38,653 bases of DNA from a virus, in the IMG/VR virus record IMGVR_UViG_3300008516_001273, positions 1 through 38,653 of that record; one strand, written 5' to 3'. Below the pieces are notes generated by a model. It was not told where the DNA came from. It ran no database searches and was given only the letters and a program-made list of their open reading frames with translations. Below, piece after piece: positions 14,210-32,254 of this stretch. How positions within the stretch are numbered: the first letter of the stretch is position 1; every line of letters begins with the position of its first letter. Position numbers and translations under genes: made by a program.

Positions 14210-14210
14210 A

Positions 14211-15158: not shown

Positions 15159-15172
15159 AGTGGCGTTGAATA

Positions 15173-16719: not shown

Positions 16720-17682
16720 ATGGGTGCTAATGCTGGTTATAGTTGCACATCAAACACGGTGAAGTTGTACAAGCATATGGATACTTTAATTCAGTTACAG
16801 AAAGGAATTGTCGTTCCTATTATGTTACATATAGTGCCTACACATAAGTGTAATATGAATTGTGATTATTGTTGTTTTAAAAATAGGAAAGACAGACAAT
16901 TGGATTTACCTTTGGAAGTATTAAAAAAAGGTATTTGGAATTTTTACAGATTAGGAACAAGAAGCATTGAATTTACAGGTGGGGGAGATCCTTCTCTTTA
17001 TCCTCATATAGATGAAGTTTTACAATGGGCGCGTGTGGTTTTGGGCATGAATATTGGTTTTATCACAAATACAGTTGCATCTAAGATTGTAAAAAATTGG
17101 AAGTATTGTAGTTGGGTGCGGGTTTCATTGAACACATTGGATTATTACGACAGTATGAATATTGATTATATTAAAGATTCTGGAACATATGTATCGGGGT
17201 GTTATATATGGAATGAAAGAACCACACCTGACGTTTTTGAGAAGGTGGTAAAATTTGCAGAGAAGGAAAAGATCGTGTGTAGAGTTGCTCCAGATTGCAT
17301 AAAACCTGGACGTGAGATAAATCAGTCAGTAAGAATGTTGACGGAGGTGTTCGAGGAGTATAAAGATAGTAAATATGTCTTCCTTTCTGATTTTAATATT
17401 GTTACGGATCGTCCTAATCTTGATTGCAGGATACATATGATAAAACCTTGTTTTTATGTGGATGGTTATATATATTCTTGTCCAAGTGCTGAATTGGCTT
17501 ATGAGAATAATCGTGCATTGCCTGAATCAATAAGATTGTGTAAGTATGATGAGGTGCTTCATTTTTATGCCGATGAAGCAAAAAATGCAACATTTCGGAG
17601 TTGTTCATATTGTAAGTATGCTGGACAACAAGTTGTACTGGAAGAGGTATTGGCAGAAACTGCATTTAATGAGTTTGCATAA
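16720..17682 (+). CDS. Radical-SAM enzyme with SPASM-like cysteine tail (copy 2)
   Basis: 320 residues. The ATG immediately follows the previous stop and is preceded by GGAGG. The cluster motif C44-x3-C48-x2-C51 and FTGGGDPSLYP (GGGDP at 87-91) mark a radical-SAM core. The C-terminal part has KPCFYVDGYIYSCPS and RSCSYCKYAG, matching a SPASM-like auxiliary cluster arrangement. It aligns along its length with the gene at 14211, so the block carries a duplicated pair that could act on successive or related substrates. The N-terminal 30 residues precede the barrel and have no clear function. The substrate is unknown; sugar modification is inferred from context. Confidence 0.82.
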   Translation: MGANAGYSCTSNTVKLYKHMDTLIQLQKGIVVPIMLHIVPTHKCNMNCDYCCFKNRKDRQLDLPLEVLKKGIWNFYRLGTRSIEFTGGGDPSLYPHIDEVLQWARVVLGMNIGFITNTVASKIVKNWKYCSWVRVSLNTLDYYDSMNIDYIKDSGTYVSGCYIWNERTTPDVFEKVVKFAEKEKIVCRVAPDCIKPGREINQSVRMLTEVFEEYKDSKYVFLSDFNIVTDRPNLDCRIHMIKPCFYVDGYIYSCPSAELAYENNRALPESIRLCKYDEVLHFYADEAKNATFRSCSYCKYAGQQVVLEEVLAETAFNEFA

Positions 17683-17696
17683 TAAAGGAATGCATT

Positions 17697-19001
17697 ATGA
17701 AAGTCGATAAAATTGTATTGATTATACCTCCGAGTCCTTGGCTTATAACTGATAGAGAAATACCTTTTTATGGCATTTTGCACATAGCTTCTGTTCTAAA
17801 ACAGAACACCAATTGTGATGTGGACGTTTGTGATTTGTCGAGTCTTCCAAAAGATAAGTGGTTCATACCAATTGGAGATCTTTACGGAGTGACCGGTGTG
17901 ACTCCGAACTTTATTTACATTAGAGATATAATTACATTACTTAAAGAGAGGGAGCCTGATAAACCTGTTATTGTGGGTGGTGTACACGCAACTGTCTTAC
18001 CTGAACATATTTTACAAAAGACTATGGCAGATGCTTGTGTATTAGGTGAGGGCGAAAACACCATTTGTAAGATTGTAGAGGGTGTTGATTGGAGAGATAT
18101 ACCGGGCATGATGACAAGAGAGTTTAACACAGGATTTCCTCCATTGATCCAAAACTTAGATATTTTACCTCTTCCAGATAGAGATATGATTGATTACTAC
18201 AGCTACCTACCGTCAACGTTATTTAATTATTTGGACACAAGTGTAAAAAGAGAAGGATCATTATTTACGGCCAGAGGTTGTTATTTTAATTGCTCCTTTT
18301 GCTCTAGTAAAAGAATACATCAAGGTAGGGTGCGCTTCAGATCTGCTGAGGCGGTTGTGGATGAGTTTGTTTATTTAAGGGATAAATTTGGAGTAGAAAT
18401 GGTGAACGTTTTAGATGATACTTTCGCCTTTAATAGGAAAAGAGCTTTTAAGATATGTGAGTTGTTGATGGAGAGAAAGGTAGGAGTGAAGTGGTTTTGT
18501 TTAGTGAGGACGGACGACGTTGATTTTGATTTAATGTTAGCAATGAAAAAAGCAGGTTGTTTGTCCGTTGCTCCTGGTTTTGAATCTGGATCGAACAGAA
18601 TCCTTAAACTGTTGAATAAGAAAATGACCATCGAAACATCAAGAAATTGTGTACTGGCCGCACACAAGGCAGGATTGATGATAAACGGACAGTTGATGGT
18701 AGGACTACCCACTGAAACAGAGGAAGATATCGAGCTTACGGCTGAACTTGTTAAAAACAATCCTGAAGTAGATACATTTGGATTGCATACATTTTATCCT
18801 TTTCCAGGATCAGATATATGGGAGAATCCTAAGAAATATAGTATAGAAATAGATAAGGACACTGATTTTTCAGACTATCATTCTGTTGGAAACCATCAAG
18901 GTGCTTACCATAGTGATCCTGTTATTGATGGGCGTTTCAGATATTTGAAGAGTGTGATAGGTGACAAAAGCCGTGAATTGAGAAGGAGATTATTGGGATG
19001 A
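17697..19001 (+). CDS. B12-binding-type radical-SAM enzyme
   Basis: 434 residues. The N-terminal ~150 residues have the Rossmann-like pattern of cobalamin-binding radical-SAM proteins: IPFYGILHIASVLKQ, a strand and turn YGVTGVTPNF, PVIVGGVHATVLPEHIL and ACVLGEGENTICKIVEG. The DxHxxG cobalamin motif is not obvious, which is common in this class. The radical-SAM motif is C195-x3-C199-x2-C202 in ARGCYFNCSFC. It is followed by FRSAEAVVDEF, DDTFAFNRKR, GFESGSNRILKLLNKKMT and QLMVGLPTETEEDI, all typical. Members methylate unreactive carbons or carry out other radical steps. A C-methyl or rearranged sugar is one possible product. It ends in a 4-base overlap with the SGNH gene. Confidence 0.85.
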   Translation: MKVDKIVLIIPPSPWLITDREIPFYGILHIASVLKQNTNCDVDVCDLSSLPKDKWFIPIGDLYGVTGVTPNFIYIRDIITLLKEREPDKPVIVGGVHATVLPEHILQKTMADACVLGEGENTICKIVEGVDWRDIPGMMTREFNTGFPPLIQNLDILPLPDRDMIDYYSYLPSTLFNYLDTSVKREGSLFTARGCYFNCSFCSSKRIHQGRVRFRSAEAVVDEFVYLRDKFGVEMVNVLDDTFAFNRKRAFKICELLMERKVGVKWFCLVRTDDVDFDLMLAMKKAGCLSVAPGFESGSNRILKLLNKKMTIETSRNCVLAAHKAGLMINGQLMVGLPTETEEDIELTAELVKNNPEVDTFGLHTFYPFPGSDIWENPKKYSIEIDKDTDFSDYHSVGNHQGAYHSDPVIDGRFRYLKSVIGDKSRELRRRLLG

Positions 19002-19657
19002 AGATAATATATACATGGGGTGATAGTCATGTCAGCATGTTCGATGAAACTTATAGAGCTTTAGGGGCTCCTAAACCAGATGGAGAGCCAAAGGTTATTT
19101 TTATAGGTAGATCTAATTCGCGTGTTTATACTGCCTATGCTATTGATACGCATGATGACGAAATACAGGAGGTGTTATCTTCAATTGATTTTAAGGAAAA
19201 TGATGAAATGTGGTTTATGTTTGGAGAAATAGACGTTCGTTTTCATATTTTTTATCACCATCAGAAATTGGGGGTGCCTTTGGACTCAATGATTGAAAGC
19301 GTTGCTGAAAGGTATGTTGTATATGTTGGAAAATTAAGGAAACAAGGATTTAATATCCATATTCTCAGTGTGGTTCCTACACAACCAGTACCTGGACCCT
19401 ATCTCCGAGACCCCACATATAATATTAAAGATTGGATTCGAGATGGAGGTAATAATCTTGAGGATAGAATATATATTACCGAAAATTTTAATAGAATCCT
19501 TGAAGTTAAATGTAGAGAAAATGATGTACCATTTAGGAATATTTATCATTATTTGGTGCACCCAACAACAAGATGTAATATTCCTGAAATGACTAGAGAT
19601 GGAATGCATTATAAGTATATTGGAGATTTTATTATTGATGAATTACATTTGGATTAG
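18998..19657 (+). CDS. SGNH/GDSL-type hydrolase or acyltransferase
   Basis: 219 residues. Block I is WGDSHVS at 7-13, with S10 as nucleophile. The usual GxND block III is replaced by FGEIDVR (GEID at 76-79), a variant known in some SGNH proteins of polysaccharide clusters. Block V is DGMHYK with D201 and H204 as the other catalytic residues. There is no signal peptide, so it probably acts inside the cell. In sugar clusters these enzymes add or remove acetyl or other acyl groups. The sequence is noticeably AT-rich by eye compared with the head genes. Confidence 0.75.
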   Translation: MKIIYTWGDSHVSMFDETYRALGAPKPDGEPKVIFIGRSNSRVYTAYAIDTHDDEIQEVLSSIDFKENDEMWFMFGEIDVRFHIFYHHQKLGVPLDSMIESVAERYVVYVGKLRKQGFNIHILSVVPTQPVPGPYLRDPTYNIKDWIRDGGNNLEDRIYITENFNRILEVKCRENDVPFRNIYHYLVHPTTRCNIPEMTRDGMHYKYIGDFIIDELHLD

Positions 19658-19669
19658 GAGGTTTATATT

Positions 19670-20527
19670 ATGCGAGTAGATTTATGTGTTCTTTTTGCTG
19701 GATTAGATTTGAATGCTTTTGCACCATTGTTTTTGGAAACATTATACAGAAATTGTGATGTTTCAAATCTTTGTGTACATGTTGTGGAGAAAGGAAGATT
19801 TGAAAGCGAATACAATGGTACTGAGGAATGGATGAAAAATTTATTTATGGAGAATTATATACCTGGTGTTGGAGATAATGTTCATAATTATTTGTTGAAG
19901 AAAAAGGAAGAATCTTTAGTTCCGTTCACAATTCATGATGCTCACGATGCCAGTATGTTTTTCAACAAACGTACTCCAAGTGAGCCAGAGTATGGTTTAG
20001 GTTCTGATTATGCGGAAACACTTAATTGGGCGATAGATAATTGTGGACAGAATAAGTGGATAATCTTTTGTCATTCAGACATGGTGTTTATAAAGGATAT
20101 TATAACTCCATTTATCGAGAGAATGGGCGATTGGACTGCTGGAATGTTTGGAATATATGGACATTTTATTGCCGTGAATAGAGAAGCCTATCATAAAATA
20201 AATGGAAACTTTAATATCATTTCCAACTTTAGAGCAGTTCCTTTCTCTGCTGCGGGATTTGATTATATAATTCGACACGCCGCAGATCCTCGGTGTCCAG
20301 ATGTTCCGGAGTCAAAAACTATTTATGGATGGGATACATTTCAATTACTTGAACTTATGATGATTGCCAATGGGTGGGTTTGTGATGTGGAGGAGAGGCA
20401 TGATCTTAAAGATTATGTTCATCATATGGCCTCAGGACATGGTTATTTGGGTTCAAAGGAAGCGGTAGATAATCGACAAGGAATAATAAGTGCATGGTTG
20501 AACACATATAAGGTGAAAAGAGTATGA
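19670..20527 (+). CDS. Probable GT-A type glycosyltransferase
   Basis: 285 residues, with a strong ribosome binding site (AGGAGG). The first strand DLCVLFAGLDLNAFAPLFLETLY and the site WIIFCHSDMVFIKDI at 130-144, with SDM as the D-x-D-like element, fit a GT-A transferase. Residues AGMFGIYGHFIAVNREAYHKI resemble the acceptor-side strand of that fold, and YGWDTFQLLELMM reads like a late conserved aspartate region. It is loosely similar in plan to the gene at 15958. The 4-base overlap with the next gene points to coupled translation. The family and donor sugar are not known. Confidence 0.55.
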   Translation: MRVDLCVLFAGLDLNAFAPLFLETLYRNCDVSNLCVHVVEKGRFESEYNGTEEWMKNLFMENYIPGVGDNVHNYLLKKKEESLVPFTIHDAHDASMFFNKRTPSEPEYGLGSDYAETLNWAIDNCGQNKWIIFCHSDMVFIKDIITPFIERMGDWTAGMFGIYGHFIAVNREAYHKINGNFNIISNFRAVPFSAAGFDYIIRHAADPRCPDVPESKTIYGWDTFQLLELMMIANGWVCDVEERHDLKDYVHHMASGHGYLGSKEAVDNRQGIISAWLNTYKVKRV

Positions 20528-21054
20528 AATTGCATATAGGTTGTGGAAAAGCGTATATACCAGGTTGGGTGAATGTAGATATTATCAGTGATGTTCATGC
20601 TGATATTTATTCAAATGCTTTGGCTTTACCTTATGAAAGAGAATCTATTGATCTTATTTATGCCTCACACGTGCTGGAACATTTTGATAGGAGACTTGTT
20701 TTATCTGCCTTAACACATTGGTATTCTTTACTCAAAAAGGAAGGTATACTCAGGTTAGCCGTGCCTGATTTTGAGGCAATAGTTGAGGAATATAATGATT
20801 CATTTTGCGATGTTGGGGGTTTGTTGGGGCTTCTTTATGGTGGACAGGATCATGTGTTGAATATTCATCGTATAGCTTTCGATTATCCATATTTGACAAA
20901 GCTATTAACCACAGCAGGATTTGTGATGACTCGAAGGTGGAATTGGCGTGAAACAGAACATTCCCACATTGACGATTATTCACAAGCTTATCTCCCTCAC
21001 ATGGATAAGGAGAAAGGCAGGTTAATGAGTTTGAACGTGGAGGCAATAAAATGA
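20524..21054 (+). CDS. SAM-dependent methyltransferase (class I)
   Basis: 176 residues, a short class I methyltransferase. Motif I is LHIGCGKAYIPGWVNVDI at 3-20. YASHVLEHF follows at the expected distance, then LLKKEGILRLAVPDFEAI, typical of type 11-like methyltransferases in LPS and capsule clusters. The end is short of a full C-terminal sheet, but no frameshift is visible. Likely substrates are sugar hydroxyl or carboxyl groups of the glycan. It overlaps both neighbours by 4 bases. Confidence 0.8.
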   Translation: MKLHIGCGKAYIPGWVNVDIISDVHADIYSNALALPYERESIDLIYASHVLEHFDRRLVLSALTHWYSLLKKEGILRLAVPDFEAIVEEYNDSFCDVGGLLGLLYGGQDHVLNIHRIAFDYPYLTKLLTTAGFVMTRRWNWRETEHSHIDDYSQAYLPHMDKEKGRLMSLNVEAIK

Positions 21055-22316
21055 AATTGGTTTTGTGTGATATGCAGCATAATATTTACTTGACAAGAAA
21101 GTATTTTGAGCCTCTAGTTGATTACAGCCAGGACAGAGGCACTCCTATCACTGTAGTAGGGTCTCTTGAAGGACTCAAAAATGTTGGCATATTGGCACAT
21201 GCTGAAGATCTTACGCCTGAAGTTATTACAAGGCTTAAAAATGATGGCAATAAGATCTTTTCCTTTGATATAAATGATAACACTCATTTATGTTATACGT
21301 ATGTGAATACGCCGGAAGCCCATGATTTAGATCTTATTTTTAAGGTCAGTGGACTTCAAACAACACAGTTTTCGGATGATATATATATTGATAAAAATCT
21401 GAATTATTCAATTAGATCTCAGCCATTTGATGCTGATGTAAACTGGAAGGGTTATGATAGTTTAATAAAATCTGGAAAAGTGATGTCGTTACCTTATGCA
21501 CCTTGGAATGAATTAGACTTATCTATGCCGCCTTGGGAAGACCGGGTTAAACACTGCCTCATAAGAGGAAGTAATCATTATTTTAGATTCCATTTGTACT
21601 TGAATTTGCTAAAGAGAAATATGGTAGATGCTTTGTCTCATTTCTTTACAGACCCTTATTTTAATCCAGCAATGGCGGATCGTTTTCGATATTGCCCTGA
21701 TTGTATTGCTGCAAGAGAAATGTATGGAGAGCTTTCGTATAGTTTTTATAAGGAACATGATTGGAAGAATTGTAACAATTCCGTAGATTGGGGTAAGGAC
21801 GAGGTGCCGGATGATTTTTTTATAACAAGTACAGGAGCTTGGAATAATCGCTGTGTGCCTATGTTTTATTGGCTGGCTGAACAGTTTGAAAAAACCCATG
21901 GAGAGGTAAATAAAGACCTGCTTCAAATAGCATTAAACGCAACGTTTCTTCCATTAGATCTTTATACCGAAATTTTACATTCATATATTTTATATGGAGA
22001 TTTTAAATGGATGTTTTCGATTTATGCTCCTCCTCGATTTTGGGAAGCTGTAAATGTTCGGGTGATTAATTTTGTTCCTGAGTTTACTAGAGATCAATAT
22101 TATTTTCCTGAAATGAAAGAAGGAGAACATTACTTAACCTATAAAGTGGACTTCTCAAACCTGGAAGATCTTCAAAATGTGAATAAGGAGCAGTACGAAT
22201 ATATTACAAATAATTGTATGAAATTATTTCAGACTTGGATAAAAGGTGATGGGTATGTAACCTCAACCAATTTACTGAATTATATATTGGAGGGAATAGA
22301 AAATGAAATTCTTTAA
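21051..22316 (+). CDS. Unknown protein, possible GT-B glycosyltransferase
   Basis: 421 residues, not securely recognised. The N-terminus KLVLCDMQHNIYLTRKYFEPLVDY reads like the first strand and helix of a GT-B or Rossmann domain. The middle has a cluster of Trp, Tyr and Cys residues (YCPDCIAAREMYGE, WKNCNNSVDWGKDE). The C-terminus MKEGEHYLTYKVDFSNLEDL followed by a long helix resembles the end of CgeB/spore-maturation-type transferases, where a similar phrase precedes the closing helices. Neighbours are methyltransferases and sugar enzymes, so a transferase is likely but not proven. It overlaps the next gene by 14 bases. Confidence 0.5.
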   Translation: MKLVLCDMQHNIYLTRKYFEPLVDYSQDRGTPITVVGSLEGLKNVGILAHAEDLTPEVITRLKNDGNKIFSFDINDNTHLCYTYVNTPEAHDLDLIFKVSGLQTTQFSDDIYIDKNLNYSIRSQPFDADVNWKGYDSLIKSGKVMSLPYAPWNELDLSMPPWEDRVKHCLIRGSNHYFRFHLYLNLLKRNMVDALSHFFTDPYFNPAMADRFRYCPDCIAAREMYGELSYSFYKEHDWKNCNNSVDWGKDEVPDDFFITSTGAWNNRCVPMFYWLAEQFEKTHGEVNKDLLQIALNATFLPLDLYTEILHSYILYGDFKWMFSIYAPPRFWEAVNVRVINFVPEFTRDQYYFPEMKEGEHYLTYKVDFSNLEDLQNVNKEQYEYITNNCMKLFQTWIKGDGYVTSTNLLNYILEGIENEIL

Positions 22317-23151
22317 GTTTGGTGATCCTAAGGACTATAAAAATATGCCCAAAGAAGAAAGGGACAAGCACACTCAAGAAATGATGAAACAGCATAAAGG
22401 ATGGGGGACATCCATGTCTCATAATCCTATAGGGTGGGCTTCATTTAATCAGATTAAAGATGAGGTTCTTCGTTTACCACATCTAACCGGAGAAGTACAA
22501 GCTAAGTGGTTGTTTGACCTTGTGAAAAAAACGAATGATGAGGCCTTGATATGTGAGGTAGGAACATATCACGGTTTTCTTGCTGCTGTAATGGGGTTAT
22601 CTTGTGTTGGGTCCTCTCGAAGGATTGTTGTTGTGGATCATATGATTGGAGATCATTGTGGAGATCATTCAGACCGGGAAAACTTGTCAGTTTATAAGGA
22701 GTTTGTGGATAATATGATTTTAATGGGTATTTGGAATAAAATCATACCATTGCCATTTAAGAGTTTTAATCCAAATATAACAGATTATGAATCATTGAAA
22801 ATGCATGATTTGAAGGCCCCAGTGATACGCACCTTATACCTTGGAGCTTATGAAATGATCTTGGCAATGGGGCTTGAATTTGATCTCATTTATCTTGATG
22901 GCAATCATGATGAGGAAAACGTTTTTAGAGAGTTGGAGCTTTATACAACTGTATTAAAAGTTGGAGGAATGATTACAGGGGATGATGGCATTGACAATTT
23001 TAGTGAGGTGTGGGATGTATTGACTATTGAAGGTGTTCCAAAAACTGGGGGGGCACCTGCCGCTATTTTTCGGTTTTTTAAAGGCAATGAAGATTTTACT
23101 CGGATGAAGTCTGTGCCTGGAAATCAATTTGGATTTAAAAAAATAAGATGA
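22303..23151 (+). CDS. Methyltransferase with an N-terminal tail-chaperone-like module
   Basis: 282 residues. The catalytic part starts near residue 80: CEVGTYHGFLAAVMG (84-98) is motif I, and FDLIYLDGNHDEENV (about 194-208) and VGGMITGDD match the MT24-type methyltransferases of sugar clusters. The first ~40 residues are a separate charged unit with the pattern FKFG-x-P-x-DY-x-NM, then TQ-x-M, H and W. The same pattern forms the C-terminus of the tail chaperone T domain (28329-28448), with 17 identities in the first 36 aligned positions and no gap. The start at 22303 follows GGAGGG and overlaps the previous gene by 14 bases. The shared module suggests a common partner; the methylated target is unknown. 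Confidence 0.78.
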   Translation: MKFFKFGDPKDYKNMPKEERDKHTQEMMKQHKGWGTSMSHNPIGWASFNQIKDEVLRLPHLTGEVQAKWLFDLVKKTNDEALICEVGTYHGFLAAVMGLSCVGSSRRIVVVDHMIGDHCGDHSDRENLSVYKEFVDNMILMGIWNKIIPLPFKSFNPNITDYESLKMHDLKAPVIRTLYLGAYEMILAMGLEFDLIYLDGNHDEENVFRELELYTTVLKVGGMITGDDGIDNFSEVWDVLTIEGVPKTGGAPAAIFRFFKGNEDFTRMKSVPGNQFGFKKIR

Positions 23152-23163
23152 GGAGGTTTTATT

Positions 23164-23931
23164 ATGATAAAGAAACAAGGACCTATTGCAATTTTAACTC
23201 ATTGGAGAACGGGATCAACGCTGTTACGATCCATATTTGTTGCTTGTGGTATGAGCGATTGCGTAACTGAGTTTGAGTATGAATATGGAGATATTAATGG
23301 TGTTGGTAATTGTTTGTACAATAAATTTAAGATGACACAAGAAGGAGTGCCTGCTGAGATTGTGGCGAATGCTTTGAGAATGTTTAAGGAGAAAGCGGAA
23401 GAGAATCAGTGGAAGCATTATGGCATAAAGATAGACCATGCTTTACAAGCTCCTTGCTGGAATGCTGTTGGCAGTCAATTTGAGGAGAATTGGCCTAATG
23501 CTCGATTTGTAATTTCAATACGGCATCCGGATGGTATTATTCGGAGCATAGCAAAACTCAGAGCATTACGTCCGCTTGCTCCTGATTTTACAGCGCAGGA
23601 TATACTTGATTCATGGTTGAGCACATATGAAAGCACCAAACATTTAATTAATGAAGGTGCTCTTGTAGTGTGCTATCCTGATTCACATATTCTTCCAAAA
23701 AATCGATTGAAGAGCGGAGTACATAAGTTGATCACACGACTTGGTATGGAGTGGACGGAAGAGGCGAGCAGTTTATTTGAAGAGGCTGATTCAGGAGAGA
23801 ATATGATTATAGAAAATGGTTCTGTCCGTTTCACTGATGATGCAAATCTAAAAGACAACAGAATATCCGATGAATCCTATAGAAATGCCATTGCGATATA
23901 TGAGGAGTTTAAAAGACATGCAATCACCTAA
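23164..23931 (+). CDS. Sulfotransferase-like protein
   Basis: 255 residues, strong ribosome binding site AGGAGG. The start IAILTHWRTGSTLLRSIF has the RTGST turn at 15-19, the 5'-phosphosulfate loop of PAPS-dependent sulfotransferases. ARFVISIRHPDGIIRSIAKLR at about 112-132 matches the 3'-phosphate binding block (R-x-P followed by a conserved serine). Between them lie helices of the expected length. Such enzymes move sulfate from PAPS to sugars or proteins; here a sulfated glycan is the natural reading. PAPS would have to come from the host because no PAPS-forming gene is in the window. It overlaps the next gene by 14 bases. Confidence 0.72.
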   Translation: MIKKQGPIAILTHWRTGSTLLRSIFVACGMSDCVTEFEYEYGDINGVGNCLYNKFKMTQEGVPAEIVANALRMFKEKAEENQWKHYGIKIDHALQAPCWNAVGSQFEENWPNARFVISIRHPDGIIRSIAKLRALRPLAPDFTAQDILDSWLSTYESTKHLINEGALVVCYPDSHILPKNRLKSGVHKLITRLGMEWTEEASSLFEEADSGENMIIENGSVRFTDDANLKDNRISDESYRNAIAIYEEFKRHAIT

Positions 23932-24580
23932 TGTTTATAACAGGGAATATTTCGAAAATGGGATAGTTTCTGGTAAAAGCAATTATGTAGATTACCGATG
24001 GCTTCCTGAACGAACACTATCAATGGCAATGATTATGATTGACTTTTTAGGAATAGATAAAAAAGAAACAATTCTTGATTACGGCTGTGCCAAGGGTTTT
24101 TTGGTGAAGGCTTTTAGGTTATTACATCGCAGAGCCTGGGGTGTTGATATTAGCAAGTATGCAATTGAAAATGCGGACGAGTCAGTATTGGATTTTTGCT
24201 TCTTGAAACAAGACCAAACTTTGGCTACCAAAGCACTCACATCTCTTCCTGATTCATTTGATTACTGTATTGCCAAGGATGTGTTTGAGCACATTGAAGA
24301 GAAGCAACTTGAACAGGATTTGAGATGGATATGGTCACATGAAATAGATACAATGTTTGCTGTGGTTCCACTTGGTGCAGGTGGTGAATTTGTCGCTCCT
24401 GCAAATAATGCGGATGTGACTCATGTCACTTGTTATCCCACAACATGGTGGTGTGATCTTTTCCAGAACAATAACTGGAAGGTAAAAAATATAAGATTTC
24501 AATTGGAGGGAATAAAAGATGCCTACTACGCAAAGTACCCGACGGCACACGGATTCTTCACACTCAAAAGAACCAACTAA
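23918..24580 (+). CDS. SAM-dependent methyltransferase (class I)
   Basis: 220 residues from the ATG at 23918, which is preceded by GAGGAG. An upstream in-frame ATG at 23870 would add 16 residues inside the sulfotransferase gene and is less likely. Motif I is ILDYGCAKGFLVKAF at 52-66, the acidic strand end is WGVDIS, and FDYCIAKDVFEHIEE holds motif IV. The C-terminal part has a Trp/Tyr-rich strand (THVTCYPTTWWCDLF). It looks like the small-molecule or sugar methyltransferases of polysaccharide clusters. This is the last enzyme of the block; the following zinc-ribbon gene starts 62 bases before its stop. Confidence 0.78.
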   Translation: MQSPNVYNREYFENGIVSGKSNYVDYRWLPERTLSMAMIMIDFLGIDKKETILDYGCAKGFLVKAFRLLHRRAWGVDISKYAIENADESVLDFCFLKQDQTLATKALTSLPDSFDYCIAKDVFEHIEEKQLEQDLRWIWSHEIDTMFAVVPLGAGGEFVAPANNADVTHVTCYPTTWWCDLFQNNNWKVKNIRFQLEGIKDAYYAKYPTAHGFFTLKRTN

Positions 24581-24716
24581 GGCGTCCTTTTGTAAGAGAT
24601 GTGGAGAGCTTTATATAGTTAATCAAGGAGAAATTTGTCCTATATGTGCAAAGGAATTGTCTAAACCTTTACCGGAAGGTGGCTCCTTTAAGATTAATAG
24701 GAAAAATATATGCTGA
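24519..24716 (+). CDS. Small zinc-ribbon protein
   Basis: 65 residues. Two CxxC pairs (C25, C28 and C40, C43) in FCKRCGELY and ICPICAKEL form a zinc ribbon. The first 20 residues are polar and flexible, the last 20 basic. It overlaps the methyltransferase by 62 bases in another frame, which is unusual here, but GGAGGG stands at the right distance from its ATG and the cysteine spacing is too regular to be chance. It bridges the sugar block and the tail genes. The function is unknown; nucleic-acid or protein binding is possible. Confidence 0.6.
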   Translation: MPTTQSTRRHTDSSHSKEPTKASFCKRCGELYIVNQGEICPICAKELSKPLPEGGSFKINRKNIC

Positions 24717-25102
24717 CTTTATTTATTCTCCAAACTGCCTTACCTAAGGCTGATGCAATGGCAACCTTTCGTTCCTTGAATGGACTGGCAGGATATTATT
24801 ATATTGTCCGTAATACTTGGGAGATTAATGCATTGAACAAACCAGAAGGTTGGTATTTGGTTCTTTATGATAATGAGATTGTTGATAAGATGTTGCAAGC
24901 CTCGTTTAAATCCTTTATGGTGGCACAACAGTTTAATGCATATACAATAATGAAAAAGGTTGAGGTACCGAAGAGAGTAGTCACACAAACACCAAGGCTC
25001 TACAGGACTGACATTGAATTGCAAGAGAATTCGTTGTTACCTGTAGAAGGAACAGAGCTTAAACTCACAAGAATTTTAGATGGTTGGATATTAGAACAAT
25101 GA
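24710..25102 (+). CDS. Unknown protein before the tail-completion gene
   Basis: 130 residues, not recognised. The first ~30 residues are fairly hydrophobic (LTLFILQTALP, GLAGYYYIVRN) but do not form a clear signal peptide. The middle is helical with aromatic residues (DKMLQASFKSFMVAQQF), followed by a basic strand (KKVEVPKRVV) and a beta-prone tail ending in DGWILEQ. It overlaps the zinc-ribbon gene by 7 bases and the next gene by 4, so it is part of the same transcription unit. By position it could belong to the head-tail connector set interrupted by the sugar block. Confidence 0.5.
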   Translation: MLTLFILQTALPKADAMATFRSLNGLAGYYYIVRNTWEINALNKPEGWYLVLYDNEIVDKMLQASFKSFMVAQQFNAYTIMKKVEVPKRVVTQTPRLYRTDIELQENSLLPVEGTELKLTRILDGWILEQ

Positions 25103-25650
25103 TACATATGTATTTTAATCCGGGTGATCTTGAACGTTGGGCAAATGCTTTGAGAAGAGCTGATGCTACAGCAAGATTACAAGCAACAGGAGTACCTCGC
25201 CGGAATGCAATTGAGTATAAATGGAAGCTTGTTAATAACATCACTCAGCAAAGATTTCATATTCTGTTTGCTGTCTATAATGAGGGTTATGAGACCTGGA
25301 AGACTAAGTATTTTGGACACACCAAAAATTGGGTCTTGTTGGGCAACTTACTCAAAAGCATTAAAGCAACAAAAACACGTAAGAGGAGACCTTATACATG
25401 GTTTTCAGGTGTTCGATATAATGCAGGTAGTGTTATTAGGTCGGAGACATCATGGTTTCATCCACCTCATAGTGGAAAGGGTAAAAGGAGAAGAATAAGA
25501 ATCTCCAGGTATGGACGTTATGGAGAGTATGGTAGAGAGGGACAACCGTCTCGACCTGTTTTTGTTCCGACAACAGAAGAGTACGTTAAAGATGGTTGGA
25601 TCAAGGTTGCACATAACGCATTAGGAAAAGTAGCACAGCAATGGCACTAG
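25099..25650 (+). CDS. Tail-completion protein candidate (HK97 gp10-like)
   Basis: 183 residues from the ATG at 25099, which overlaps the previous stop by 4 bases; a longer form from a TTG at 25084 has no support. The N-terminal part (DLERWANALRRADATARLQA) is a helix, followed by a middle rich in basic and aromatic residues. The end SRPVFVPTTEEYVKDGWIKVAHNALGKV matches the closing R-P-F-x-P phrase and helix seen in HK97 gp10-like tail-completion proteins. Such proteins seal the tail end that joins the head. The position two genes before the tail terminator candidate agrees. A long basic loop (KGKRRRIRISRYGRYG) is unusual. Confidence 0.55.
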   Translation: MIHMYFNPGDLERWANALRRADATARLQATGVPRRNAIEYKWKLVNNITQQRFHILFAVYNEGYETWKTKYFGHTKNWVLLGNLLKSIKATKTRKRRPYTWFSGVRYNAGSVIRSETSWFHPPHSGKGKRRRIRISRYGRYGEYGREGQPSRPVFVPTTEEYVKDGWIKVAHNALGKVAQQWH

Positions 25651-25661
25651 AGGAGAGGAAA

Positions 25662-26075
25662 ATGACCACAATCGAAGTTACGAATGATGTTCCTTTAACT
25701 GCACGGCAATTTGTGGAGTTGATCGATGAATTTTATCATAATGCAAAGCTCGAAAAACTCTCCAGATTTAGCATAAAGTGGGGTAGATGGTCAACAAAAA
25801 TGAATGTAGAGCTTAGACAGAGAATTGAGACCAAACGCGATCCAGAGGAGCTTAAACTGAAGCATGTTTTTATCTATTGGACATTAAAATCACAGCTATT
25901 GGAATTGTACTACAGGTATCCTTCCCGTGCTTTCAAGGCAGGGCAAAAACGGAGACTCTTAAAGGAGGCTGCCGATAACAGGGCAATAATATTCAGCGTT
26001 GATGGTTTAAATGTTCCAGAACTTGATAGTCAAAGTGCTATCCAAACGATATTAAGAGGTTTAAACATAGCATGA
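25662..26075 (+). CDS. Unknown connector-region protein
   Basis: 137 residues from the ATG at 25662, which has GAGGAGAGG just upstream; an ATG at 25641 lies inside the previous gene and is less likely. The protein is mostly helical and basic (VELRQRIETKRDPEEL, RAFKAGQKRRLLKEAADN) with a short N-terminal strand. No motif is recognised. It overlaps the next gene by 4 bases and lies between tail-completion and tail-terminator candidates, so a role in tail assembly or connection is reasonable. Confidence 0.5.
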   Translation: MTTIEVTNDVPLTARQFVELIDEFYHNAKLEKLSRFSIKWGRWSTKMNVELRQRIETKRDPEELKLKHVFIYWTLKSQLLELYYRYPSRAFKAGQKRRLLKEAADNRAIIFSVDGLNVPELDSQSAIQTILRGLNIA

Positions 26076-26290
26076 AGATCTTAAAAGTAGAGTCGAAAGA
26101 CATATATGTCACGATAGAGCTATCAGTAGCCCAAATCAAGCATATCCTTGACTTCTTGAATCACTGCATATGTAACTATAATTCAGAAGAAGAGCCGTCT
26201 ATGAAAGAATCTGACGCTTATATGAACGAAACCTTTTTTAAAGAGTTAAATGATTTATATGAGAATATTGAAAGAGGGGGAATTGAATAA
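26072..26290 (+). CDS. Small unknown protein
   Basis: 72 residues, acidic, with one central helix (SVAQIKHILDFLNHCICNY) and a second helix at the end. The start overlaps the previous stop (ATGA) and the stop overlaps the next start by one base, so it is almost certainly translated. No motif is recognised. Confidence 0.5.
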   Translation: MKILKVESKDIYVTIELSVAQIKHILDFLNHCICNYNSEEEPSMKESDAYMNETFFKELNDLYENIERGGIE

Positions 26291-26778
26291 TGGCTTTAAA
26301 TCCTACAGCAAGAGAAGCCAATGTAATTGATTCAATCAAAAAGTATTTTGTGGATAATATATATACGACAGAAGGAATTGCAGTTACATTTGATGATTCT
26401 CTTTCACAACCCAAAGTGCAGGGTTCTCCATCAGAAGTAGATAGATGGGTGGGCATTGAAACTGGAGATCTTGAGCTTGATACTTTATCTGAGTTTTTCC
26501 TCGAAATTTATGTTTGCACTAGAAAGGATAATGAAGGTTTTAGAAACGCTCAATTAAGAGACACGATAATGGGGTATCTTGTTGACAGCGAAGGAACATA
26601 TACCGATGGTATGATGCGAATTCCTTTTTATCGTAGTGTGGCTGGAGGGTTTAGTAATTGGACACTTCTTGGTAATTTACTTATACAAGATGTAATAGAA
26701 TCGGGGAGAATGAAAACACCTGATGAAACAAAATTTAAGGTCTTAACTGTGCGTCTACGATTTGCGAGTAAAGTATGA
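26290..26778 (+). CDS. Tail terminator candidate (gpU-like)
   Basis: 162 residues. It begins with a helix (REANVIDSIKKYFVDNIY) and continues with alternating strands and turns: WVGIETGDLELDTLSEFFLEIYVCTR, then a helix with AQLRDTIMGYLVD, and a last strand FKVLTVRLRFASK. This alpha-beta plan, the size and the place two genes before the tail tube match the tail terminator proteins of siphoviruses, which cap the tail tube at the head end and set its length together with the tape measure. A strong GAGGGGG precedes the start. The family is inferred, not proven. Confidence 0.55.
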   Translation: MALNPTAREANVIDSIKKYFVDNIYTTEGIAVTFDDSLSQPKVQGSPSEVDRWVGIETGDLELDTLSEFFLEIYVCTRKDNEGFRNAQLRDTIMGYLVDSEGTYTDGMMRIPFYRSVAGGFSNWTLLGNLLIQDVIESGRMKTPDETKFKVLTVRLRFASKV

Positions 26779-26993
26779 TGGAAAAGATAGAATCATTTAT
26801 AAGGTGTGAGAAATGTGGTAAGAAACTCATTGCCAGACAGGGTAATGGGATATGGCATTTTCGTTTCGGTAGAAGCGAGGATGGTGGAGAACCTCCTGTT
26901 GATATGAAAATATATGGATCAATAAAGATGAAATGCCTACGCAGATCATGTAGGCATATAAATATTTTAAATCATTTTCCATTCAAAATTTAG
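26775..26993 (+). CDS. Com-like zinc-finger protein
   Basis: 72 residues. The start FIRCEKCGKKLIA with C11 and C14, and the second half IKMKCLRRSCRHINILN with C54 and C59, resemble Com of phage Mu, a small zinc-finger protein that binds the mom mRNA and allows its translation. Differences are an insertion of about 25 residues between the two cysteine pairs and CxxxxC in the second pair. Com-like proteins occur in many phages, often without mom. A gene for a Mom-type DNA modification enzyme is not visible in this window. The coding 3' end contains an 8-bp inverted repeat. The gene overlaps the previous one by 4 bases. Confidence 0.6.
   Translation: MMEKIESFIRCEKCGKKLIARQGNGIWHFRFGRSEDGGEPPVDMKIYGSIKMKCLRRSCRHINILNHFPFKI
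26933..26957 (+). repeat. 8-bp inverted repeat at the end of the Com-like gene
   Basis: ATGCCTAC (26933-26940) and GTAGGCAT (26950-26957) form a perfect stem around a 9-base loop inside the coding 3' end. The run after it is A/T-rich but has no immediate T tract, so it is not a standard terminator. It could act as an RNA structure near the following gap. Confidence 0.5.
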
Positions 26994-27022
26994 TTCCTCA
27001 ATCGGTTTTCCGAGTTCTTCAA

Positions 27023-27052
27023 TTGACACAATCGTCAAAATCCGGCTTTAAT
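27023..27052 (+). promoter_or_regulatory. Candidate promoter before the tail tube gene
   Basis: TTGACA at 27023-27028 is followed after 18 bp by TTTAAT at 27047-27052, one base from the TATAAT consensus. The surrounding DNA is A/T-rich, and the 88-bp gap is the largest in the tail region. A sigma-70-like promoter here could raise expression of the abundant tail tube and downstream tail genes. No start site can be proven from sequence alone. Confidence 0.5.
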
Positions 27053-27081
27053 ATATTATATAGAAAGGAGGTGAAGTATTT

Positions 27082-27678
27082 ATGGCAACAGGACCTTTAA
27101 CAAAAGATACTAGTACAGTTGCATTGGGGTTGGCCCAAATCCAAGTTGGGGATTCATCGGATAATATTGCCGATATTAATCCTGCTCTGAGCTCATCCGA
27201 TTCATTGGGCGCCATGGCCGATACTCGTTTTATGGGTGAAACTGATTTTTTCAGACTTGAATCAGGATATCCGTTGATGGAAGACGACGCTCTTCCGATT
27301 CGGGAGAAGGCTGCCTTAGAGTGCTCTTTTAAGGAAATAATTCCCGTAAACGTGGCTTTAGCTTATGGCTTTGATTTTGGTGAGTCGCCTTATGATGGTA
27401 TGACAGTACATTCTGGTGAAGTTCCCTTAGGAGCAAGGATAGCTCCTGTATTTATGAGAATGGAGGCAGAGTATACCTATCCTAGTGGTACAGATTATAT
27501 GTACATAATCTTTCCACGAGCGCAGGTACTTTCGAGTATCGAGATGAATATGGGTGTGGAAGAAGCCGTTGCTGTGCCCATCACATTTGAAGCTAAAAGA
27601 GCTGATAGTGGTATTACTGATGGGGACGCTGCGTGGGATTCAAAGCCTTTAGGACGGATTTTTTGGAAATCAGATTAA
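27082..27678 (+). CDS. Major tail protein (tail tube)
   Basis: 198 residues, preceded by the near-perfect site AAAGGAGGTGA. The protein is beta-rich, with a long first section (TVALGLAQIQVGDSS, MADTRFMGETDFFRLESGYPLMEDDALPI), a helix-turn KAALECSFKEI, strands around YMYIIFPRAQVLSSIEMNM, and a closing VPITFEAKRAD. This is the usual plan of siphovirus tail tube proteins, and the phrase about image-like strands followed by FEA is common in them. Its neighbours, the terminator upstream and the G/GT chaperones plus tape measure downstream, leave little doubt. Tube rings stack around the tape measure to form the tail. Confidence 0.82.
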   Translation: MATGPLTKDTSTVALGLAQIQVGDSSDNIADINPALSSSDSLGAMADTRFMGETDFFRLESGYPLMEDDALPIREKAALECSFKEIIPVNVALAYGFDFGESPYDGMTVHSGEVPLGARIAPVFMRMEAEYTYPSGTDYMYIIFPRAQVLSSIEMNMGVEEAVAVPITFEAKRADSGITDGDAAWDSKPLGRIFWKSD

Positions 27679-27708
27679 ACATTTAACTAACTTTTAAGGA
27701 GAAGTGAT

Positions 27709-28209
27709 ATGCCGGAAGAAAATTTAAAGATCAATCCTCAAATTACGGAGATCGAAATAGGTGTCCGTAATTTGAGGAAGGTAAAAGTTTATCCTCTATC
27801 TATGGCCGATCAAATGGACATGACTGATCTTATTACAGAAGGTTTGAAATCTTTTGTAGAAGGTGGGGAGACGATGGAGGAGATTGAGGAGATTGAGGTT
27901 ATCGGAACCATTGTAGATTTAATCAAGAATAATCTTGGCAGAATATTACATTTTGTTACTGATGAGGATGGAGATGAATTATTAAAAGAAATCTCCAATG
28001 AGCAATTCACCACGATTGCTAAAAAGGTCTACGAAATTAATTATGAAGGAGCAATAAAAAACGTGCAGGGCCTCTTCGACCAGATCAAGACACAATTTCA
28101 ACCGAAGAGGCCATTACCACCGTCTGTGAACGATATCCAGGATACAGACTCGAACATTTCTACCGACTCTCCTATACTCAAGGAGGAGTCACACGCGACC
28201 AATTCTTGA
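27709..28209 (+). CDS. Tail assembly chaperone G
   Basis: 166 residues between tail tube and tape measure, the fixed place of the lambda G/GT pair. It starts after AAGGAG. The N-terminal part (EIEIGVRNLRKVKVYPLSMADQMDMTDL) and the helices that follow are typical of tail assembly chaperones, which keep the tape measure soluble and recruit tube subunits. The last ~50 residues (from about 118) are the zero-frame tail read only when ribosomes do not shift; they are Pro/Ser/Thr-rich. At codons 117-118 lies a slippery A AAA AAC that allows a -1 shift into the T region. Confidence 0.85.
   Translation: MPEENLKINPQITEIEIGVRNLRKVKVYPLSMADQMDMTDLITEGLKSFVEGGETMEEIEEIEVIGTIVDLIKNNLGRILHFVTDEDGDELLKEISNEQFTTIAKKVYEINYEGAIKNVQGLFDQIKTQFQPKRPLPPSVNDIQDTDSNISTDSPILKEESHATNS
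28056..28112 (+). promoter_or_regulatory. Programmed -1 ribosomal frameshift signal (G to GT)
   Basis: The heptamer A AAA AAC at 28056-28062 is correctly phased to the G frame. After a 6-nt spacer, GGCCTCTTCG (28069-28078) pairs perfectly with CGAAGAGGCC (28103-28112): a 10-bp stem with a 24-nt loop. A purine run AAGGAG at 28046-28051 may add pausing. The -1 frame is open from 28041 to 28451, so a shift yields a continuous GT protein. Lambda and many other tailed phages use such a shift at this gene pair. Confidence 0.92.
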
Positions 28210-28451
28210 CTCTATTTAAGCATACACAGAAAAGAGAACGTGAGAAATGGGAAAGGGAAGCTGCGGTACATGGAATAAAGATTAAAAGAGATGCCCAATC
28301 AGTAAGTGAGACAAAGGTAGAAGATTCCTTTAAATTTGGTTCACCTGAAGATTATGAGAATATGACTCAAGAGAAAAAGGAAGAAATCACCCAAAAGATG
28401 AAGGGAAAACATAGAGCATGGAGAAGCTCCGTGACGAATAAACTTGGGTGA
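28062..28451 (+). CDS. T region of the GT tail chaperone (reached by -1 frameshift)
   Basis: About 129 codons read in the -1 frame after the slippery site, added to the first 118 residues of G to give a GT protein of about 247 residues. No good independent start exists: the TTG at 28206 has no ribosome binding site at proper distance. The sequence after the shift (ITTVCERYPGYRLEHFYRLSY, then TRDQFLTLFKHTQKREREKWE) resembles T regions, which bind the tube subunit while G binds the tape measure. The C-terminal ~40 residues carry the module FKFG-x-P-x-DY-x-NM...TQ-x-M...H...W shared with the N-terminus of the methyltransferase at 22303. The stop overlaps the earliest possible tape-measure start. 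Confidence 0.88.
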   Translation, partial: RAGPLRPDQDTISTEEAITTVCERYPGYRLEHFYRLSYTQGGVTRDQFLTLFKHTQKREREKWEREAAVHGIKIKRDAQSVSETKVEDSFKFGSPEDYENMTQEKKEEITQKMKGKHRAWRSSVTNKLG

Positions 28452-28465
28452 TGGGGAGAACTAAA

Positions 28466-31400
28466 ATGGGGGAGCAAGACAAAACATTATCATTAGGAAC
28501 CATTTTTACGGCGAATGAAGCCCAGTTCCTTGCCGCTACTAAAAGAATGAGGACTGCTCTTGGCGGTGTGAATACCGCTATGGGCAATGTGGCAAAAGAT
28601 ACTACAAAGTCCGGTAAGAAGGCCGCAGAAGGATTACATCCTCTAAATAAACAAATCAGTAAAGTTCATGGAGGTTTAAACCGCCTCAGAGCGGCGGCAA
28701 AAGTTACTGCTGCTTATGGATTAGCTGCAACAGCGATTTTTGGTCTCACAAATGCATTGCGAAGTGGTGCTGAAGAGATTGTAAATTTTGACCAGGCTTT
28801 AAGGAATATTGAGGCCATTACTGGAGCAACTTCGGCAGAGATCGCCTTAATGGATGATATCATGCGCCATGTTGCGGAGACCACAAAATTCTCCACAACT
28901 GAAATTGCAGAAGGCATGGTGCTTTTAGGTCAAGCTGGTTTTAGTGCTGGAGAATCAATTTCCGCCATTCAAGCTGCCGCTGATCTTGCCGCTGGAACTT
29001 TAACAGACCTTGCTACTACCACCGATTTACTTACCTCAACTGTACGTGCTTTTGGACTACAGGCCATTGAGGCAAGTCGTGTTGCTGATGTCATGGCTAA
29101 TGCCATCAATAAATCCAAATTAACAGTCGATAAAATTCGGACTTCATTTAACTATGTTGGCGCTGCTGCCGCTCAGGTAGGATTGACTTTAGAACAAACC
29201 GCCGCTTCTATGGCCTTGCTTGCTAATAATGGTTTACGAGCGAGTACGATTGGTACTGGCTTTAGGCAAGTATTGTCTCGTATGATTGCTCCAAATCGGA
29301 AACTTGCTGAGACTTTTGAAGAACACGGTATTGAATTAGATAGTATCAATCCAAAAGTCCAAGGCTATGAAAAAGCCATGCTAAATTTGACAAAAGTTAT
29401 TACTAAGGCTGATGGTGTTACAGTTGATATGACCAAGGCTTTTAGACTTTTTGGATTGAGAGGTGCTCAAGCTGTTGCCGTTTTGACAAGTGGTTTCCAG
29501 GGGGAGTATTCTCCATTTAGTGTAATGCTCAGAAAAATGTTTGAAGTAGGTGCTGCTGAAAAGATGGCAGCCATACAGGCCAGAGGACTTGCTTTCAAGT
29601 TCAAGAATCTACAAGATAGAGCAAAAACCCTTGCCCTTGCTATAGGTGATGCTGGTGTTGCAGGTGCTTTGAGGTCATTGGTTGATGCATTATCGGCTGC
29701 TGTAACAGGAATGGAGAGATTTGTTAAGTCCTCAGGAGGACAGGTTGCCACCCAAATGACATTACTCACAACATTACTCCTTGGTGTTGGTAGTGCTTTA
29801 ACAATTTTATATAAAGCATTGGCTTTTATCGTGATTGGTATAAATAAATGGGTATTGGCGCTTCATCCTACAACACGACTTCTTATGGTAATTGGTGCCG
29901 CAATTTCAGCAATTGCAACCACATTTAATTTCTATAATAAGGCCCTTGAAAGGAATATCAAAGCCAATGAAAAAAGGCAGCAACAGCTTATTATGGAGAA
30001 AGGCTCTTTAATGGCGTATAAAGGGGCGCTTGAAAGCATTATAGAGACTGTTGATAAGACTGATGAGGTATCTGTTGAACATTCTGCCATATTACAAAGA
30101 CTTGCTCATGATCATGAGGATCTTGCAGGTGTTGTTCGGGAATCTGCTGATGATTATAGCAAATTTGGTGATGTTGTGTCTGTGGTAACTGAAAAAATGT
30201 TGAGGGGTGAAGAGGAATTTATTTACAAAGCGAGTGAAAGAATATCACAATATACTGAACAAATAAGAAAACAAGTTAATGTAATACGATCAGCCCAGGA
30301 ACTATCAGGAGAAAGAAAACCTGAAGAAGAATCATTTTTTAAAAGGATAAAGCATTGGTATGAAGTGTTATTGGGTCCGTTTTGGGGCTTGCCAAAAGAT
30401 CTTGAAGAAGAACAAGAAAAACTAAATGAATTATTAGCAGATGAAATTGAACAAATGGACAAACTTTACCATGCCCTTCTCAGACAAGGTCTTTTGCTTA
30501 AAAAAGATGTTGTTCCAACGATGCGTTTTAGAGTTAAGGAATTGGAACGCCTGGGATTCCTTGAAAATTTGGAGGCCACTGTCCTTTTAGATAAATTAAT
30601 CCCGGCATTAGAAAAGGAAATAGAGGCCAGAAAGAAAGGAAAAAAGGAGAGGGAAGTTGAAAAGGAGGCTAAGGAACTTAAGGAATCAGTTAGATTGAAT
30701 ATACGTTTTCTGTCTTTAATGAGAAGTATGGAGCAAGATAGGGTAAAAGAGATAGAGCTTTCATATAAACGTAGAACGGAGCAGATAAAACAATTCTATG
30801 AAGATGAGGTTAAATTCTATAAGAAGTCATTGGAGATAGAAGATGAGGGAGAGAAAATACAAGAAGCAAAAAGATTGGCCAGTATAAGGAAAAAGGAAGC
30901 AGATGCCCAGAATGAAAGGAAACGACAATATGATCTTGCTAAATTACATCGTGATATAGCTCTTGAGGGATTAAAATTAGAAGAACTTGTTGCTAAGAAA
31001 AAGCTTGAACTACAAAGTCAGGCCGTTGCGGTTGATGATCAGGCAACACAACAAGACATAAAAAATGCCCGCAGAGAATTGGAGATTAAAACAAATCAAG
31101 AGATACTCGATCTGGATAAGACCTTTTTAGAAAGCACTTTGGAACAATTCAAAGAGGACAGTAAGGAGGTTTACGCTGCCAGATTGAGGGTGGCCAGAAC
31201 CGAGGTCAATCTTCAAAAATCAAAGACCAAGGATATTGAAGGTGATCGGGAGGACGAGCGTAAAAATTTGTCTGAACATTATGAATTGGAACTCGCAGAA
31301 GTAGAAAAATATTCAGCGGAATGGTTAAAGATCCGGGAAGAGATGTATGCCGAGGATCTTATAACTATGGGAAAATTAGAAGAGGATAGAAAAAGTCGAT

Positions 31401-32254
31401 TAAAGAAACGTGCAGAAGAGGAAGAAAGAGCATATAAATCGGGCGAGATCTCCGCTGAACAATATTATGCCGTACTTAAAGAGCTTGATGAACAACATGT
31501 TGGAGAGCATGAAGAAAATGTAAGAAAAATGATAGCAATTGATGGAACGTGGTTAGAAAATTTACGTGCCGGAGCAAGGAAATGGACAAGTGAGGCAAAG
31601 ACTTGGGGAGAAACGTGGCAGGAAATAGGAGAAGATGTTGCTGATGTGATAAGTACCAATATCACAAGTGCTTGGTTTGATTTCATTGAGGGATCGAAAA
31701 ACGCCAAAGAGGCTATGGCAGACTTTGCAAGAAGCACCCTTAGATGGTTGGGTGAGATCATTGTAAAGCAGATGATATTAAATGCTCTGCAAGGATCACG
31801 AATAGGCAAATGGCTTGGACTTGGAGGTAAAGCCGCCACAACACCATCAACACTATCAACACCAGCACCTATACCCGCTTTTAGAGAAATTAAACATGGT
31901 GGTGGCATTGTAGGTAAGGGTGTCATAAGTCGTATGCAAATGCCTAAGAGGCTTCATAATGGTGGGATTGCCGATAAAGAAGTTCCAATTATTGCAGAAA
32001 AAGGTGAAGGTGTTTTTACAGAAGAACAGATGAAAGCAATGGGACTTATGGTTAAGGAGGGTCAAAAAGTGAGCATTGTAAATAGCTTTGATGGGGCTCT
32101 TTTCATGGATAGAAGACAGTTAATGGAGGTAGTCACCGATGTCGCCTCACAAATTGCTATGACAGTAACACAACAAACCGCAGCCAATGCGGTTGTAGAG
32201 GCAGTTTCAAATGATCATCCGATTAGGCGTGTGATGCAACAAGGAGGTTACTAA
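28466..32254 (+). CDS. Tail tape measure protein
   Basis: 1262 residues from the ATG at 28466. GTG 28448 and ATG 28451 are in frame upstream, but only 28466 has a ribosome binding site at good spacing (GGGGAG, 7 bases away). The N-terminal core (FDQALRNIEAITGATSAEIALMDD, ETTKFSTTEIAEGMVLLGQAGF, LEQTAASMALLANNGLRAST) is the classic tape-measure domain. Hydrophobic segments at about 428-462 and 468-488 could insert in the host membrane. Residues about 710-1000 are long charged coiled coils. The C-terminus has the usual region near GEIIVKQMILNAL and a Gly-rich end. At about 0.15 nm per residue, the tail would be near 190 nm long. Confidence 0.93.
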   Translation: MGEQDKTLSLGTIFTANEAQFLAATKRMRTALGGVNTAMGNVAKDTTKSGKKAAEGLHPLNKQISKVHGGLNRLRAAAKVTAAYGLAATAIFGLTNALRSGAEEIVNFDQALRNIEAITGATSAEIALMDDIMRHVAETTKFSTTEIAEGMVLLGQAGFSAGESISAIQAAADLAAGTLTDLATTTDLLTSTVRAFGLQAIEASRVADVMANAINKSKLTVDKIRTSFNYVGAAAAQVGLTLEQTAASMALLANNGLRASTIGTGFRQVLSRMIAPNRKLAETFEEHGIELDSINPKVQGYEKAMLNLTKVITKADGVTVDMTKAFRLFGLRGAQAVAVLTSGFQGEYSPFSVMLRKMFEVGAAEKMAAIQARGLAFKFKNLQDRAKTLALAIGDAGVAGALRSLVDALSAAVTGMERFVKSSGGQVATQMTLLTTLLLGVGSALTILYKALAFIVIGINKWVLALHPTTRLLMVIGAAISAIATTFNFYNKALERNIKANEKRQQQLIMEKGSLMAYKGALESIIETVDKTDEVSVEHSAILQRLAHDHEDLAGVVRESADDYSKFGDVVSVVTEKMLRGEEEFIYKASERISQYTEQIRKQVNVIRSAQELSGERKPEEESFFKRIKHWYEVLLGPFWGLPKDLEEEQEKLNELLADEIEQMDKLYHALLRQGLLLKKDVVPTMRFRVKELERLGFLENLEATVLLDKLIPALEKEIEARKKGKKEREVEKEAKELKESVRLNIRFLSLMRSMEQDRVKEIELSYKRRTEQIKQFYEDEVKFYKKSLEIEDEGEKIQEAKRLASIRKKEADAQNERKRQYDLAKLHRDIALEGLKLEELVAKKKLELQSQAVAVDDQATQQDIKNARRELEIKTNQEILDLDKTFLESTLEQFKEDSKEVYAARLRVARTEVNLQKSKTKDIEGDREDERKNLSEHYELELAEVEKYSAEWLKIREEMYAEDLITMGKLEEDRKSRLKKRAEEEERAYKSGEISAEQYYAVLKELDEQHVGEHEENVRKMIAIDGTWLENLRAGARKWTSEAKTWGETWQEIGEDVADVISTNITSAWFDFIEGSKNAKEAMADFARSTLRWLGEIIVKQMILNALQGSRIGKWLGLGGKAATTPSTLSTPAPIPAFREIKHGGGIVGKGVISRMQMPKRLHNGGIADKEVPIIAEKGEGVFTEEQMKAMGLMVKEGQKVSIVNSFDGALFMDRRQLMEVVTDVASQIAMTVTQQTAANAVVEAVSNDHPIRRVMQQGGY

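Follow-up and report, generated by a model that had tools for sequence, protein, structure and literature searches.

The closest described systems are the frameshifted tail assembly chaperones of phage lambda (gpG/gpGT) and of TP901-1, whose genes lie between those for the tail tube and the tape measure, and in which a −1 slippery heptamer places a small T extension on the frameshifted product only. The lambda G protein binds the tape measure, and its T counterpart recruits or binds the major tail protein, as T is taken by analogy to do in TP901-1 (PMC5009743; PMC4493119). A different point of reference is provided by the modification blocks of the mycobacteriophages Corndog, Che8 and Myrna, in which methyl- and glycosyltransferase genes lie inside the structural gene region, as in the methyltransferase-glycosyltransferase block of Corndog (PMC4351075), and which are thought to modify the capsid and tail tube (PMC4351075, PMC12363180). 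Mycobacteriophages glycosylate both structures with glycosyltransferases of their own (PMC12363180).

The viral DNA analysed here, a stretch of 38,653 nucleotides that we call the window (IMG/VR record IMGVR_UViG_3300008516_001273), resembles both groups in gene arrangement (Table 1). Unlike the lambda and TP901-1 systems, its T region bears a conserved C-terminal module on a linker, and unlike the mycobacteriophage blocks, its modification block includes an enzyme fused to an assembly-chaperone module; a limited literature search returned no published fusion of a modifying enzyme to such a module.

Table 1. Features of the window discussed in the text.
Feature	Position	Strand	Evidence
Sugar/modification block between head and tail genes	13478..24580	+	family matches
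Class I methyltransferase (Methyltransf_24 / CmcI-like) with module-bearing N-terminus	22303..23151	+	PF13578 match; secured start
Copy of the T C-terminal module, methyltransferase residues 4–44	22312..22434	+	sequence comparison
Tail tube protein	27082..27678	+	position and conservation; no family match of its own
G, tail assembly chaperone, 0-frame product	27709..28209	+	weak phrog_1442 match; position; homologues in relatives
Slippery heptamer A AAA AAC in the G frame, putative −1 shift into T	28056..28062	+	heptamer and overlap
T region, −1 frame: helical domain, flexible linker, C-terminal module	28062..28451	+	alignment of relatives; AlphaFold model
Native T C-terminal module	28329..28448	+	profile of relatives; module helices of the T model
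Tape measure protein	28448..32254	+	PhageMin_Tail 3e-39; many tape-measure PHROGs

The frameshifted chaperone and its C-terminal module

In the window and in its relatives, the G and T genes sit between those for the tail tube and the tape measure, the tube homologues of the relatives being 55–61% identical and having the same neighbours. The product of the G frame matched phrog_1442 (tail assembly chaperone) weakly (E 0.0024). The T frame overlaps the 3′ end of G in the −1 register, and a heptamer of the form A AAA AAN occurs at the equivalent place in approximately 85% of the relatives; heptamer and overlap together suggest that T is entered by −1 frameshifting at the site listed in Table 1.

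The T region is ordered as a conserved helical domain, with a consensus around GEAVTxVCExY-GYRLEDFYRxSFREGGxT, followed by a linker and the module. Its AlphaFold model (mean pLDDT 79) placed helices at residues 16–71, then a linker below 50, and within the module a short helix at residues 97–100 (PEDY) and a long helix at residues 105–127. The consensus of the module across T sequences reads F-x-F-G-D-P-x-[DE]-Y-...-E-[ER]-...-T-x-x-M-M-...-H-K-x-W. Unlike lambda and TP901-1, the T family of the window yielded no significant match to Pfam, and its fold yielded none among solved structures and viral models (PDB, Foldseek). A weak and partial match of phrog_10474 was obtained in 19 of 70 members, and tblastn of INPHARED records with two full-length members of the family (window 28206–28448 and relatives) returned no match; from these sequence searches, the family is apparently known only from uncultivated phages. 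T families are divergent, and a match to a named family was therefore not taken as a required feature.

The module at the N-terminus of a methyltransferase

The C-terminal piece of T recurs at the N-terminal end of an enzyme encoded in the modification block: residues 4–44 of the methyltransferase, whose N-terminus reads MKFFKFGDPKDYKNMPKEERDKHTQEMMKQHKGWGTSMSHNPIG, are homologous to the C-terminal 40 residues of frameshifted T, whose end reads EDSFKFGSPEDYENMTQEKKEEITQKMKGKHRAWRSSVTNKLG. The first-pass annotation had drawn this alignment from the letters alone, and both of its coordinate ranges proved correct; its count of 18 identities holds for the whole match, which extends to the final N and G (18 of 41 columns, one gap), but not for the first 36 ungapped positions, where there are 16. 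The pair scored 106 under BLOSUM62, where 2000 shuffles reached at most 48, and an all-against-all blastp of the window genes gave E = 1.3e-8, the next-best value between unrelated families being 0.004. The homology, at 44% identity in protein and 65% in DNA, is far above chance.

The start codon of the methyltransferase is the ATG at 22303, closely preceded by a TAG in the same frame and served by the ribosome-binding site GGAGGG, and the module is therefore the genuine N-terminus of the enzyme, as had been claimed. The same start and ribosome-binding site, together with the 35% DNA divergence between the two copies, exclude an assembly artefact as the source of the match. Two further resemblances were set aside: a putative degenerate second copy, in the last part of the gene upstream (22152–22238; tblastn E 0.02, blastp E 0.6), has neither of the invariant residues P and Y and was rejected, and one tblastn alignment of methyltransferase residues 45–80 with the N-terminus of the tape measure is probably a chance match.

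Downstream of the module, PF13578 matched residues 85–228 (E 6.9e-10; 40.2 bits against a curated cut-off of 26.3), and the match to RMNT_CmcI fell below its own cut-off. Like other class I methyltransferases of the Methyltransf_24 / RMNT_CmcI type, the enzyme has motif I, EVGTYHG, and then LDGNHD...GGMITGDD, corresponding to the D-x-x-H ... GG-x-x-x-x-D-D region. It differs from them in an extra N-terminus of 45 residues, which is the T module, and in having no close homologue in the collections searched (viral contigs, phages, plasmids, PDB and ~790 genomes), so that its age and its native N-terminus cannot be fixed. The module on the enzyme was modelled as the same two helices as in T (pLDDT ~95), an agreement that is not independent because the enzyme's alignment contained T modules. 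The catalytic part was modelled at pLDDT <50 from an alignment that held no homologues for it; mixed alignments prepared for folding the enzyme were misaligned and were discarded.

Distribution of the module

Searching with the tail tube, we gathered 80 viral and 5 genomic loci. The first two relatives (L003 and L012) had the same order of tube, G, T and tape measure, with T ending in the module, and an iterated profile detected the module within the T frame at 80 of the 85 loci, that is, in all 80 with an intact G-T-tape-measure junction. In four of the other five, the contig stops short of the module position, and the fifth, L023, has a deletion at ~11015–11290 that fuses T to the tape measure and removes the module along with the first residues of the tape measure; this reflects either a defective genome or an assembly error. 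A profile search of 50 whole records found a single copy in 49 and none in the record of L023.

Searches beyond these loci led back to T. A scan of 2.9 million viral contigs with a pattern for the module alone gave 25 confirmed loci, all of them T ends, and a second pattern, written to detect N-terminal copies, matched three sequences, none of which was a module. In four host genomes, the module occurred in T only, one match at E 0.34 aside, and samples of 398, 345 and 293 genomes from three phyla contained none beyond the three genomes used as centres. Across the 49 whole records, ~110 loci and the sampled genomes, no second enzyme or other protein carried it, and among 28 distinct comparable methyltransferases near tail genes in the fetched loci of relatives the count was zero. 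The window methyltransferase is thus the sole carrier outside T that was found.

On the strength of the record, pattern and genome scans, the module is a conserved element of a single tail-chaperone family, with the methyltransferase as the only exception, and it defines a hitherto unnamed C-terminal module in a large uncultivated family of frameshifted chaperones. The expectation that it would recur at chaperone ends as a discrete, selected piece was borne out in ~80 relatives by profile search; the further suggestion of a tag common to chaperones and enzymes at large was not, since the same scans rule out a general tag on many enzymes. Its absence from the 28 comparable methyltransferases means that it is not a widespread docking tag and that a tie to the tail is not needed for such a block. 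Because ~80 relatives keep the module on the chaperone only, it is the enzyme that looks to have been given the chaperone's tip. The module is neither confined to two genes through recent local duplication, being present in ~80 relatives and no recent copy of the window's own T, nor a patternless low-complexity charged helix, given its specific F/P/Y/T/M/H/W pattern and the lack of any match in ~1000 unrelated genomes.

Two similar tail regions of the window's phage family (L101 and L102) lie on separate contigs of one Sulfuricurvum MAG, and another (L104) sits on a contig that binning assigned to a Thermoplasmata archaeon, which may be a host or a binning error.

Origin and possible role of the enzyme's copy

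Under a profile built from T sequences only, the enzyme's copy scored 59.4 bits, the window's own T module 65.2 and the others 57–75; it matched the consensus at 10 of 12 conserved columns (T mean, 81%) and is no more degraded than real T modules. When neutral drift was simulated from the own T at 17.5% of sites, half the observed divergence, none of 1000 simulations reached the enzyme copy's score; drift of less than ~10% from the T of L108, L024 or L073 reached it in 116–135 of 1000. A score within the range of real T modules and these drift results together indicate a copy that either has long been maintained by selection or was acquired recently from a T outside the sample. Relative to the own T, the same synonymous codon was used at 9 of 13 positions (expected 6.75 ± 1.7), which is near saturation, so the two did not part recently. 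In protein, the copy is closer to other T modules (~60% for L115, L108 and L024) than to the own T (44%), and in DNA the own T is closest among 109 rows (65%), and a donor therefore cannot be named. The identity, codon and drift comparisons rule out a recent duplication of the own T, relative to which the enzyme's copy appears to be old or foreign.

A foreign copy might also be a young one, in which recent illegitimate recombination with the T of an unsampled relative left a passenger segment too recent to have decayed. Phages commonly undergo mosaic exchange, and both the closer protein identity to other T modules and the compatibility with limited drift from L108, L024 or L073 point in this direction. 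We nevertheless judge such an origin quite improbable, as the nearest sampled T is no closer than ~63%, the own T heads the ranking in DNA, and a clean start codon and ribosome-binding site stand right at the module.

The explanation we favour, at somewhat below an even chance, is that a domain fusion put the tail of T on a modifying enzyme and thereby docks the enzyme on the complex that assembles the tail. A class I methyltransferase would have acquired the C-terminal end of T at its front, and selection would then have retained it. In T, a flexible linker would tether the short and long helices after the remainder of GT; carried by the enzyme, the module would bind T's partner, for which the lambda precedent makes the tail tube protein or the GT/tape-measure complex the likeliest candidate. 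The enzyme would thereby be placed next to its putative substrates, tail proteins or the glycans they carry, and methylation would take place during tail assembly. Standing against this proposal is the fact that one enzyme in one genome bears the module. Across 59 loci, the correlation of distances with those of the module was 0.02 ± 0.08 for the tube, 0.01 ± 0.07 for the tape-measure N-terminus, 0.12 ± 0.07 for the T helical domain and 0.15 ± 0.08 for G, a weak partial correlation; these values being nil or weak, no partner is named. The part of T that binds the tube could be the conserved helical domain rather than the module.

The lack of a named partner, the use of the module by a single enzyme and its compact helical form in the models would also suit a fusion that was real and selected as an N-terminal helical cap, stabilising, solubilising or oligomerising the methyltransferase with no link to the tail. 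The enzyme, however, keeps the whole T signature up to its very end (NPIG, vs PMG / KLG in T), which goes beyond helix propensity, and we regard a mere cap as unlikely, if still worth serious attention. Very improbable, in our assessment, is a protein that tunes tail assembly by competing with T or by binding G or GT, with catalysis secondary: tails depend critically on the G:GT ratio (PMC4493119) and the weak correlation was with G, but that correlation lies within two standard errors and the catalytic motifs of the enzyme are present.

If docking through the fused chaperone tail is correct, it would connect the modification of virions directly and physically with the assembly of their tails. 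It is possible, though doubtful, that phages can more generally graft the substrate-binding tail of their own tail chaperone onto a modifying enzyme and so deliver it to a tail protein during assembly, a form of chaperone-guided virion modification. The same module on an enzyme also constitutes a natural experiment from which the binding roles of the different parts of T could be worked out.

The block that includes the methyltransferase contains genes for a glycosyltransferase, three radical SAM proteins, a polysaccharide pyruvyltransferase, methyltransferases and a sulfotransferase. The radical SAM proteins at 14088–15158 and 16720–17682 are diverged paralogues (26% identity, E 1e-31), the third, at 17697–19001, has a B12 domain, and two unannotated proteins of the block, at 15958–16719 and 19670–20527, are distantly related to each other (E 0.004).
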